Assembly: GCF_006228325.1 (NCBI RefSeq)
Contig: NZ_CP040231.1
Location: 1,623,001-1,687,000 of the forward strand
DNA: 64,000 bases
Direction of reading: 5' to 3'
Source: Streptococcus sp. 1643
GTDB taxonomy: Bacteria; Bacillota; Bacilli; Lactobacillales; Streptococcaceae
The position numbers were made by a program, and so were the translations under genes. Shown here in pieces: positions 37,372 through 55,981 of this stretch. How positions within the stretch are numbered: position 1 is the stretch's first letter; each line of letters begins with the position of its first letter. The notes below the pieces were generated by a model, which did no database searches, was not told the DNA's origin, and saw nothing but the letters and a program-made list of their open reading frames with translations.

Positions 37372-37524
37372 CACTCAATGAAAATCAAAGGGTAAACTAG
37401 GAAGCTAGCCGCAGGCTGCTCAAAACACTGGTTTGAGGTCGTGGATAGAACTGATTGAGTCAGCGTCATATACCTACGGCAAGGCGAAGCTGACGAGGTT
37501 TAAAGAGATTTTCGAAGAGTATAA
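37372..37524 (-). repeat. BOX element downstream of pulA
   Basis: Begins ACTCAATGAAAATCAAAGGG and ends with GAGATTTTCGAAGAGTATA, the hallmarks of the two ends of a pneumococcal BOX. The middle contains a boxB-like hairpin segment (CAAAACACTGGTTTGAG) and a TACCTACGGCAAGGCGAAGCTGACG block. The boxA side lies to the right, so A-to-C direction is on the minus strand. It begins right at the pulA stop codon, so pulA mRNA can include it. Confidence 0.85.
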
Positions 37525-52049: not shown

Positions 52050-52143
52050 CAAAAAATAAGCCGCCTAATTGGGCGACTTAGTTTTATAGGGAGATTATTA
52101 TGAAAAAGTTTTAGGAGTTTAAGTTAAGTTCCTCTTAACTTAT
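52050..52143 (-). ncRNA. CiaR-dependent small RNA (csRNA/ccn type), copy 1
   Basis: About 94 nt from a start near 52143. A 5' hairpin AAGUUAAG/CUUAACUU has loop AGGAA. The middle is single-stranded and contains ACUCCUAAAACUUUUUCAUAAU and CUCCCU, which are complementary to Shine-Dalgarno and AUG start regions. The 3' end is a terminator, AAGTCGCC/GGCGGCTT, then ATTTTTTG. This is the layout of the csRNAs of S. pneumoniae, which inhibit translation initiation of target mRNAs. Target not assigned. Confidence 0.8.
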
Positions 52144-52149
52144 GAACCT

Positions 52150-53761: not shown

Positions 53762-53861
53762 ACAAAAAAGCCACCTGATTGGGTGGCCTCTTTAGGGAGA
53801 TTATTATGAAAAAGAAAAGTTTAGGATTTCATTAAATAAAGTTAGGAGGTCTTTATTTAAT
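53762..53861 (-). ncRNA. CiaR-dependent small RNA (csRNA/ccn type), copy 2
   Basis: About 100 nt. The 5' hairpin UUAAAUAAAG/CUUUAUUUAA carries loop ACCUCCUAA, which exposes an anti-Shine-Dalgarno. A single-stranded stretch CUUUUUCAUAAUAAUCUCCCU provides a CAU complementary to AUG and a second C-rich site. The terminator is GCCACC/GGTGGC then TTTTTTG. It is the clearest of the three copies. Confidence 0.85.
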
Positions 53862-53867
53862 ATCCAT

Positions 53868-53900
53868 ATGATACAAGAGAAGACTTAAAGTTAGCTTAAC
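53868..53900 (-). promoter_or_regulatory. CiaR-box promoter of csRNA copy 2
   Basis: Minus-strand GTTAAG (53895-53900), CTAAC, TTTAAG (53884-53889), 10 nt, TATCAT (53868-53873). The first half-repeat starts with G rather than T. Spacing identical to the other two copies. Confidence 0.8.
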
Positions 53901-54750
53901 CTATAAATTTTATTTTTTTGCTAGAGATTTTAACTACTACCAGCCAAAGCAGAAAAGTTAGGAGGCAGATACTCACCACTATTAAGTATGTTTCTTCCTT
54001 TGTTAAAAGGTTCTGCCAATTAAGCTGGATTCCTAATTTTTCTTGAAACTCTTCTAATAAGCTACTATTCCCCATAAATGTAGTTTCTAATTGCTCCTTC
54101 ATTAAGACCTGTCTATAGAGAGAAGCAAGATAGGTAGCCGGTGTGCACTTCATGAGAACTTGAGCGAAATTAGGAAGAATTCCCATTGGTACATAAGTTC
54201 CTACTAAAAACCCTGAAGCTGTACCTACAATGGTAGCCAATTTACCTAGACTATCTACTGACTGGAAATGATAAATCAAGAGTACATTTACCAATGTTGA
54301 AAGGAGACTACTTAGCAGCATGATTAAACTTATTTCAAATAGCTTATTCATAGCTGGAATTTCTTGAAAATAAAGGCTCATAACAATAAGCATAAATACT
54401 TGCATAACAAAGGAAATGATAAGGCTACTAATAAGATAAGACAGTTGCAAGCCCCAGCTCCCTAAGTCTGTCAAAAAGAGATCATGATCCACTTGATTTT
54501 CACGGTCTTGTACCATCTGGGTCAAAGCTGTAAAACTGGTTGTAATCCCAGTAACAGCCAAGGTTCCACCCATCAGCCAGTTATTTAATAGACTCTTATT
54601 ATCAGGAAGTTGGGACCAGGCATCCATCAAATTTTTCTGCAAAAAAATGATATAGAGTAGAAAGGAAATCAAAGCTCCTAGTAATGAGAAAAAGACTCCT
54701 GAACGATTACGAAAATACAACAAAAAATCACGTTTTAATAAGGCTAACAT
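53896..54750 (-). CDS. ABC-2 type transporter permease
   Basis: 284 residues with six TM helices: an N-terminal FLLYFRNRSGVFFSLLGALISFLLYIIFL segment, then a long hydrophilic loop and a GTASGFLVGTYVPMGILPNFAQVLMKCTPATYLASL core typical of ABC-2 export permeases. It pairs with the ATPase whose stop overlaps its start. Substrate unknown; peptide, bacteriocin or antibiotic export are the usual possibilities. The CiaR box of csRNA copy 2 lies at its stop codon. Confidence 0.85.
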   Translation of the reverse strand: MLALLKRDFLLYFRNRSGVFFSLLGALISFLLYIIFLQKNLMDAWSQLPDNKSLLNNWLMGGTLAVTGITTSFTALTQMVQDRENQVDHDLFLTDLGSWGLQLSYLISSLIISFVMQVFMLIVMSLYFQEIPAMNKLFEISLIMLLSSLLSTLVNVLLIYHFQSVDSLGKLATIVGTASGFLVGTYVPMGILPNFAQVLMKCTPATYLASLYRQVLMKEQLETTFMGNSSLLEEFQEKLGIQLNWQNLLTKEETYLIVVSICLLTFLLWLVVVKISSKKIKFIG

Positions 54751-55613
54751 TAGCGCACCTCTCTTCCTGTAAGAGCTATGAAGGCATCATCCATAGTTCC
54801 TGGACGAAATTCAAAGCCAGCAATCTTCTCACGAACTTGGGTCAAATAATCAATCGCTTCCAATTGGCTCTTAGGATAAAGACTATACTCAAACTCATTT
54901 TCCTTTTCCACAGGCATATTCTTAGGTAAGAATTTCTCCACCTGCTTATCTTTAAAACAAATTTTTAAAAGATTGGAAGCGTACTCACTTTTAATCTCAG
55001 TAGCAGAATCTTGAGCAATAACCTTTCCATGATCTATAATATAAAGTTGATCTGCCTCATCTGCTTCATCCAGATAATGAGTCGTTAAGATAATAGTCAT
55101 CCCTTCATCTCTTTGTAGACGATACAATAAATCCCAAATGGATTTGCGAGTCTGAATATCTAGTCCAGTCGTAGGCTCATCTAGAAATAAAATATCGGGA
55201 TTGGATAGGAGAGCCCGAGCAATGTCAACTCGACGTTTCTGTCCTCCTGATAAAGTTCCATAAAGTTGTTTCTGAAAAGCAGTCAACCCTAGTTGATTGA
55301 TTAAATCTTCCACACGACCACCTTTAATCCCCTTATACTGCTGGGCTCGAATGGTTAGGTTTTCTTTGACTGTCAACTTTCCATCCAATACACTTGCTTG
55401 AAAAACAACTCCAATCCTAGTATTGGGCGCATAGATGATTTGACCATTAGTAGCTCGTTTAAGTCCGATTAACATTGAAATCGTGGTCGATTTACCAGCC
55501 CCATTAGGTCCTAAGATTGCATTAAAACTCCCTTTTTTAAACTCTAAATTTATATTTCTAACTGCTATATGGTCTCCATACTTCTTAGTGATGTCTTTTG
55601 CTTGTAAAATCAT
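54750..55613 (-). CDS. ABC transporter ATPase, ABC-2 export type
   Basis: 287 residues. Walker A GPNGAGKST (about 37-45), signature LSGGQKRRVDIARALL, Walker B ILFLDEPTTGLD and the switch region LTTHYLDEADEAD are intact. The C-terminal extension (to DDAFIALTGREVR) is usual for drug-type export ATPases. It sits next to the permease (stop-start overlap of 1 nt) and its promoter has a perfect 21-bp-spaced direct repeat. Confidence 0.9.
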   Translation of the reverse strand: MILQAKDITKKYGDHIAVRNINLEFKKGSFNAILGPNGAGKSTTISMLIGLKRATNGQIIYAPNTRIGVVFQASVLDGKLTVKENLTIRAQQYKGIKGGRVEDLINQLGLTAFQKQLYGTLSGGQKRRVDIARALLSNPDILFLDEPTTGLDIQTRKSIWDLLYRLQRDEGMTIILTTHYLDEADEADQLYIIDHGKVIAQDSATEIKSEYASNLLKICFKDKQVEKFLPKNMPVEKENEFEYSLYPKSQLEAIDYLTQVREKIAGFEFRPGTMDDAFIALTGREVR

Positions 55614-55740: not shown

Positions 55741-55942
55741 TAAAAAAAGCCACCTGATTGGGTGACTTCTTTAGGAGATTATGATGAAAAAGAAAAGTTT
55801 GGGATTTCATTAAATAAAGGGTACTCAATGAAAATCGAAATCAGACTAGGCAGATAGGCGCAAGCATAACTATAGTTAGCTAAGTCGACTCTAACGAAGG
55901 TTGATGAGATTTTCGAAGAGTATTAGGAGGTCTTTATCTAAT
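55741..55942 (-). ncRNA. CiaR-dependent small RNA (csRNA/ccn type), copy 3, interrupted by BOX
   Basis: Same organisation as copy 2, but about 200 nt long because a BOX element sits in it. The 5' arm UUAGAUAAAG and anti-SD ACCUCCUAA precede the BOX; the matching arm CUUUAUUUAA, then CUUUUUCAUCAUAAUCUCC and the GTCACC/GGTGGC terminator follow it. The promoter and terminator are intact, so an enlarged RNA may still be made. Whether it works is unknown. Confidence 0.7.
55819..55922 (-). repeat. BOX element inside csRNA copy 3
   Basis: About 104 bp, from GGTACTCAATGAAAATCG (boxC-like end) to GAGATTTTCGAAGAGTA (boxA end), lacking a clear boxB. It replaces the junction between AAAG and TTAGGAGG of copy 2, with the flanks otherwise continuous. 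Confidence 0.8.
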
Positions 55943-55948
55943 AACTAT

Positions 55949-55981
55949 ATAATACACGAGGAGACTTAAACTTTACTTAAG
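55949..55981 (-). promoter_or_regulatory. CiaR-box promoter of csRNA copy 3
   Basis: Minus-strand CTTAAG (55976-55981), TAAAG, TTTAAG (55965-55970), 10 nt, TATTAT (55949-55954). Confidence 0.8.

Follow-up and report, generated by a model that had tools for sequence, protein, structure and literature searches.

A BOX-type repeat in the first hairpin of the small RNA csRNA6 of Streptococcus sp. 1643 and related streptococci

Why does one csRNA gene of Streptococcus sp. 1643 carry a long stretch of additional sequence inside its first hairpin, and can an RNA of this kind still act on its targets? These questions are raised by a locus in the window analysed here, which is the whole stretch of 64,000 nucleotides from position 1,623,001 to 1,687,000 of contig NZ_CP040231.1. 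The reading that we consider fairly probable is that the loop of csRNA6 took up a BOX element, likely long ago, and that the BOX, which is predicted to be self-folding, leaves an RNA that would still pair with mRNA start regions and block their translation.

The features of the gene are given in Table 1. The Rfam csRNA model RF02379 matches positions 55829–55743 on the minus strand with 65.3 bits (gathering threshold 57), and the first hairpin is interrupted. A CiaR-type promoter is present at 55981–55949, in which a repeat of the consensus form NTTAAG-N5-TTTAAG (PMC3091779, discussion) lies 10 nt ahead of the −10 region. The promoter, both hairpin arms and the terminator, all of which the original prediction held to be kept, were read on the minus strand. 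Between the arms TTAGATAAAG and CTTTATTTAA are ACCTCCTAA, then 101 bp bounded by TACTC...GAGTA, and then CC. The insert (55922–55820, minus strand) directly follows CCTCCTAA and adds 103 bp net, i.e., 101 bp plus 2 nt, so that the 104 bp first proposed was roughly right in size. The nonamer [A/C]UCCUAAA[A/C] after the first stem-loop is matched at eight of nine bases in the window (AUCCCAAAC), and several other BOX-bearing copies read AUCCUAAAC. Two more csRNA paralogues are located outside the window in the same genome.

Table 1. Features of the csRNA6 gene and of neighbouring csRNA genes (positions are those of the window).
Feature	Position	Strand	Basis or remark
CiaR binding repeat CTTAAG-TAAAG-TTTAAG (CTTAAG-N5-TTTAAG)	55965–55981	minus	read directly
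−10 region TATTAT, 10 nt past the CiaR repeat	55949–55954	minus	read directly
csRNA6 transcription unit of about 200 nt, start at about 55942	55742–55942	minus	start rule of PMC3091779; Rfam match; place and span of csRNA6 (Uo5) in G127
First hairpin, 5' arm TTAGATAAAG	55932–55940	minus	fold; pairs kept in 35/35 sequences
Anti-Shine-Dalgarno ACCUCCUAA; internal loop in the window, apical loop in the empty allele	55923–55931	minus	predicted
BOX-type repeat of 101 bp with TACTC...GAGTA terminal inverted repeats, TACTCTTCG end transcribed first	55822–55922	minus	empty-site comparison; own-genome copies; tree
CC, two bases at the place of the expected 3-bp target duplication	55820–55821	minus	AC, TC or AT in other copies
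First hairpin, 3' arm CTTTATTTAA	55811–55819	minus	fold; pairs kept in 35/35 sequences
Linker CAUCAUAAUCUCC, complementary to Shine-Dalgarno and start codon	55774–55786	minus	predicted comC pairing
Terminator hairpin and T run	55743–55772	minus	Rfam match; fold
csRNA2, ordinary short paralogue downstream of csRNA6	53764–53861	minus	Rfam, 102.4 bits
csRNA4, ordinary short paralogue downstream of csRNA6	52054–52144	minus	Rfam, 71.1 bits; order as in Uo5

A csRNA of this length has been described before. In S. oralis Uo5, csRNA6 was placed at 1714673–1714474 beside csRNA2, with a predicted length of 200 nt (Marx 2010, PMC3091779). By sequence, the BOX-bearing csRNA of genome G127 starts at 1714672 and ends at 1714474, which matches the published end and is one base off the published start; the other four Uo5 csRNAs (table 2 of Marx 2010) agree with G127 positions within 3 bases at each end. 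On this agreement of coordinates, we take G127 to be Uo5. The long RNA of the window is csRNA6: like its Uo5 counterpart it has csRNA2 and csRNA4 as neighbours and a predicted length of 200 nt (PMC3091779), and the two are identical at 96 of 101 positions of the BOX part and at 96/96 of the remaining transcript. Northern blots of Uo5 were reported to show every predicted csRNA at its expected size and to lose all of these signals in a ciaR mutant, i.e., the csRNAs are CiaR-dependent (PMC3091779). A transcript across the BOX has therefore already been reported. The doubt that no transcript might cross the element thus falls away for Uo5, and the expectation of an RNA about twice as long agrees with the approximately 200 nt of csRNA6.

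The word BOX does not occur in the main text of Marx 2010 (PMC3091779) or of another paper that names csRNA6, according to a word search, Denapaite 2016 (PMC4863584) mentions BOX at other loci, and a naming of the csRNA6 middle as BOX was not found in the open-licence literature searched. Within that literature, the BOX origin of the csRNA6 middle appears to be unreported. The novelty originally claimed for the locus holds to this extent, although the 200-nt csRNA6 itself was published in 2010 (PMC3091779).

The identity of the insert was assessed against other BOX copies. Eight further copies in the same genome extend across the full 101 bp with 73–77% identity to the csRNA insert, which shares their TACTC...GAGTA terminal inverted repeats; together with the empty-site comparison below, these copies bear out the proposal that a BOX occupies the apical loop of a csRNA. 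The BOX typing primer, which we take to be BOXA1R, matches two of the eight (L066 and L067) at 21 of its 22 bases, and no site for this primer within 3 mismatches is present in the csRNA copy. The boxA/boxC module structure of the csRNA insert is presumably A–C. In published papers, the primer string occurs together with the word BOX. A further BOX is located at 37373–37521 of the window (matched in two pieces), with a one-mismatch typing-primer site at 37474–37495.

Mobile copies were represented by 28 loci from the own and related genomes, 26 of which could be parsed. TNA precedes the element in 26/26 of them, and an exact 3-bp target duplication is present in 22. No target site duplication was found at the csRNA BOX, which has TAA on its left and CC on its right. 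The TAA fits the BOX target, and the replacement of the right-hand duplicate by CC may be read as erosion. Because an intact target duplication is absent, the insert is, judged by its sequence, BOX-derived and no current mobile BOX. In S. infantis SK970 (L030/L036), the right arm of the csRNA BOX contains a 12-nt insertion made of tandem ATTTTG-type repeats.

Empty alleles show the form of the gene lacking the element. With the 261-bp locus as query against 284 Streptococcus genomes, G113 matches positions 5–68 and G114 positions 1–68, and both then continue at 172–248 on directly adjacent bases, so the BOX insert is no accident of alignment. The RNA gene of G113 and G114 equals that of the window minus 103 bp, the window having one extra T in the final T run. 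Short csRNA6 alleles occur in eight relatives (G113, G114, G225, G202, G132, G126, G170 and G242), and the BOX of the G207 csRNA6 (L023) is 26 nt shorter; the full BOX is therefore dispensable in those genomes. The comparison across relatives proposed with the original prediction thus yields both BOX-bearing and empty alleles, the latter exact in G113 and G114, and the long form as the sole form is ruled out. Near 2040688 on C1 of G207 (L054), not far from where the sequence record ends, a csRNA arm and most of a BOX occur but lack the csRNA promoter, possibly as a result of rearrangement or assembly.

Searches with the BOX insert returned at least 38 csRNA-type matches spanning at least 96 of 103 bases, 87–100% identical, in at least 27 of the 284 genomes; two or three candidates were scored per genome in this search and in that with the 261-bp locus, and counts are accordingly lower bounds. 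G207, a 28th genome, gave three fragments at 97–99%, and apart from these the next best match among the matches listed is 79% identical. All 38 csRNA-type loci checked (38/38) sit in a csRNA frame at the same loop position. In the tree, csRNA BOX sequences (34 rows) and mobile BOX sequences (26 rows) are split by one branch at 100/100, from a bootstrap that had not settled, and the csRNA BOX of the window is 67–77% identical to the 26 mobile copies. That the element transposed recently out of the pool of mobile BOX copies was rejected, as identity is at most 79% among the matches listed. A separate insertion in each species is unlikely, given the single loop position of 38/38 copies and the single branch of the copies in the tree. 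For carriage by phages, no match was found among 50,697 phage records.

How the RNA may work was approached by folding. The predicted folding energy is −41 kcal/mol for the whole RNA (z −4.0) and −21.5 kcal/mol for the insert alone (z −2.3), the latter being equalled by 6 of 200 shuffles. In the predicted fold, the BOX forms a closed rod atop the csRNA stem, and ACCUCCUAA, the apical loop of the empty allele, comes to form one strand of an internal loop. The mean unpaired value of ACCUCCUAA is 0.82–1.00 in 35/35 distinct long sequences. In the window, it is 0.98 for the loop and 0.84 for the linker, the lowest linker base being at 0.18, and the anti-Shine-Dalgarno and anti-start segments are thus unpaired, as in a csRNA, by folding. 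Net pairing of the csRNA6 linker with the start region of comC from the same genome is predicted at −13.5 kcal/mol with the BOX and −13.6 without it, and that of the loop at −7.6 in both cases; the csRNA2 linker is predicted to do better than that of csRNA6 (net −17.2). In S. pneumoniae, csRNA–comC pairing has been placed around the start region (PMC4507080).

The original prediction had considered that the insertion may disable the antisense loop. With both anti-Shine-Dalgarno segments predicted to be free and comC pairing predicted to be unchanged, a disabled csRNA6 is unlikely. That the insertion broke csRNA6 and that the gene is now decaying is a very improbable reading, although the RNA is doubled in length, its anti-Shine-Dalgarno is no more an apical loop, and G215, G216 and G141 (L225, L226 and L227) have a first CiaR half-site off consensus (TCTAAG or TCTTAG), at positions that have been called slightly variable (Marx 2010, PMC3091779). 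None of promoter, arms, linker and terminator is damaged in the window, csRNA6 of Uo5 was reported on northern blots (PMC3091779), and the linker is nearly invariant. All pairs of stem 1 are likewise kept in 35/35 sequences, with an A-U pair replaced by G-C in three; L225, L226 and L227 have such a double change.

We predict from these models that csRNA6 would exert ordinary repression by a longer RNA. The first hairpin would become a long rod, in which the anti-Shine-Dalgarno, no longer at the apex, would lie in an internal loop and still be single-stranded, and the linker, which is predicted to do most of the pairing, would remain untouched by the BOX. The free anti-Shine-Dalgarno segments could then pair with mRNA start regions, e.g., that of comC, and block translation. 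The BOX may be retained as part of the RNA body, where it would most likely set stability or turnover. Effects of BOX on RNA half-life have been mentioned (PMC3395615), and the longer csRNA6 would probably be more stable than the short form.

The free loop is not specific to this BOX. Among 300 shuffled inserts, the loop has a mean value of 0.82, with 112/300 at 0.9 or above and 6/300 reaching the 0.98 of the window; stem 1 pairing is 0.84 in the window against a shuffle mean of 0.86, and 233/300 shuffles equal or exceed the window. When seven mobile BOX copies and a reversed BOX were placed there computationally, the loop was predicted to be even freer. Loop accessibility with any BOX tested follows from the self-folding of BOX and, as mobile and reversed BOX sequences and many shuffles also leave the loop free, it does not prove selection.

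Age and constraint were considered from sequence divergence. The csRNA BOX is common to S. infantis-type genomes at the syntenic ruvB–GNAT locus. At the island-free S. infantis-type loci L025, L026 and L030, the BOX is identical to that of the window at 93, 93 and 90 of 101 positions (89–92%), compared with fourfold-site identities of 0.42–0.63 in GNAT1/GNAT2 and 0.54–0.60 in ruvB (Fisher p 2e-5 to 5e-15, six comparisons). Fewer BOX columns vary where pairing is predicted (14/60) than where it is not (22/41; p 0.003). Variable columns number 36/101 in the BOX, 5/38 in the linker and 4/18 in stem 1, and no two-sided change (covariation) was found in BOX pairs across 35 sequences. Three control BOX loci (L065, L067 and L069) were followed in 36 genomes (own included), with full-length matches in at least 8, at least 7 and at least 11 genomes. 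In S. infantis-type G068, G112, G154, G171, G172 and G240, L065 and L069 match on one flank only and stop at most about 11 bases from the BOX edge; these six genomes could not be judged at L067.

The insertion into the csRNA is likely old, and these sequence data point to likely selection on the csRNA BOX. We grade selection only as likely because the linker is far more conserved, two-sided change is absent from the BOX, some relatives have short alleles and the BOX of G207 is shorter by 26 nt. Another possible cause of low BOX divergence is exchange between species. Copies in G141, G215 and G216 had been considered as evidence of deep conservation and were dropped, since each adjoins a redox island at udk–dnaX, with which the BOX csRNA may have travelled.

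A stronger form of the favoured reading is domestication, in which a single BOX inserted into a csRNA loop, left the mobile pool, formed its own branch and became an RNA domain held by selection, giving csRNA6 a stability or a partner distinct from those of its short paralogues; we put this forward tentatively, at somewhat less than even probability. A neutral passenger, i.e., a self-folding BOX that is tolerated and whose low divergence between species reflects repeated exchange of short csRNA tracts by transformation without selection, appears less probable still and rather unlikely. It would fit the loop left free by every BOX tested, the eight relatives with short alleles, the island-linked copies in 11 genomes described below and, further, the csRNA2-type genes of G236, G121 and G119 that have the same BOX in the same place, which is best explained by conversion through shared arms. 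It fits less well with the separate branch of the S. infantis-type copies (96/96; support for the S. oralis csRNA6 group is 81/94) and with the lower variation in paired BOX columns. Moreover, GNAT1, with only about 55 nt between its end and the downstream RNA start, is strongly diverged, and exchanged tracts would consequently have to end at the csRNA.

Homologous csRNA arms could account for several movements, namely transfer of the BOX to csRNA2 copies, its loss where a short allele takes over and its spread along with a metabolic island. An island of redox genes between csRNA copies has been described, and csRNA genes have been proposed as entry sites (Denapaite 2016, PMC4863584). In our reading, its content comprises an FRD-like flavoprotein, an FMN reductase and an OFA-type transporter. 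In 11 genomes, a BOX csRNA is found approximately 60 nt from the end of the island, including S. oralis DD15 (L039) and S. infantis DD18 (L040), and in G141 (L227), G215 (L225) and G216 (L226) island and BOX csRNA are located at udk–dnaX, outside ruvB. Such proximity in 11 genomes, G141, G215 and G216 among them, and the proposal of csRNA genes as entry sites (PMC4863584) would agree with a role at the DNA level, in which the BOX csRNA would be retained chiefly as a site of recombination or as an island border, its RNA being secondary. We regard this as improbable, as the csRNA at the island border of G172 (L042, L230) is short, and BOX csRNA6 loci without the island exist in the window (L006), in Uo5 (L231) and at L030.

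Similar to BOX elements of S. pneumoniae and S. mitis (Croucher 2011, PMC3049150), the csRNA copy has terminal inverted repeats and self-folding RNA, and a BOX between two T-box riboswitches in that study provides an earlier example of a composite RNA. Different from the elements described there, the csRNA copy is on a separate branch, without intact target duplication and inside the hairpin of a small RNA. In S. pneumoniae TIGR4, 17 or 18 small RNAs hold BOX sequence, and many of these predicted RNAs consist mostly of BOX (Mann 2012, PMC3395615), whereas the BOX of csRNA6 interrupts an established regulator that has a known promoter and paralogues. In QMITE-derived small RNAs, MITE sequence likewise contributes to a bacterial small RNA (PMC5896051); there the MITE makes the small RNA or a promoter part, and in csRNA6 it lengthens a hairpin within a family that already exists.

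The BOX insertion explains why csRNA6 is twice the length of its paralogues. It has also split one gene into two types in the csRNA type lists, which use 80% identity without long gaps (PMC3091779). Long and short alleles of one small RNA in close relatives, with mobile BOX copies as outgroup, form a natural experiment, and make it directly testable whether a parasitic repeat can turn into a functional component of a bacterial small RNA.

Two further observations concern the surroundings of the gene. Antisense to the csRNA linker, positions 55770–55813 of the plus strand contain a start-region-like TTTAGGAGATTATGATGAAAAAG followed by a 10-codon frame, which is probably a mirror of the predicted anti-Shine-Dalgarno design. 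Different from Uo5, the window has an ABC-2 transporter pair (PF01061, PF00005) at 53896–55613 on the minus strand that separates csRNA6 from csRNA2. The pair in Uo5 (L231) is 77.5% identical and is located between the GNAT genes and leuS; owing to this different placement, the pair in the window appears to be a further insertion between copies of csRNA genes.
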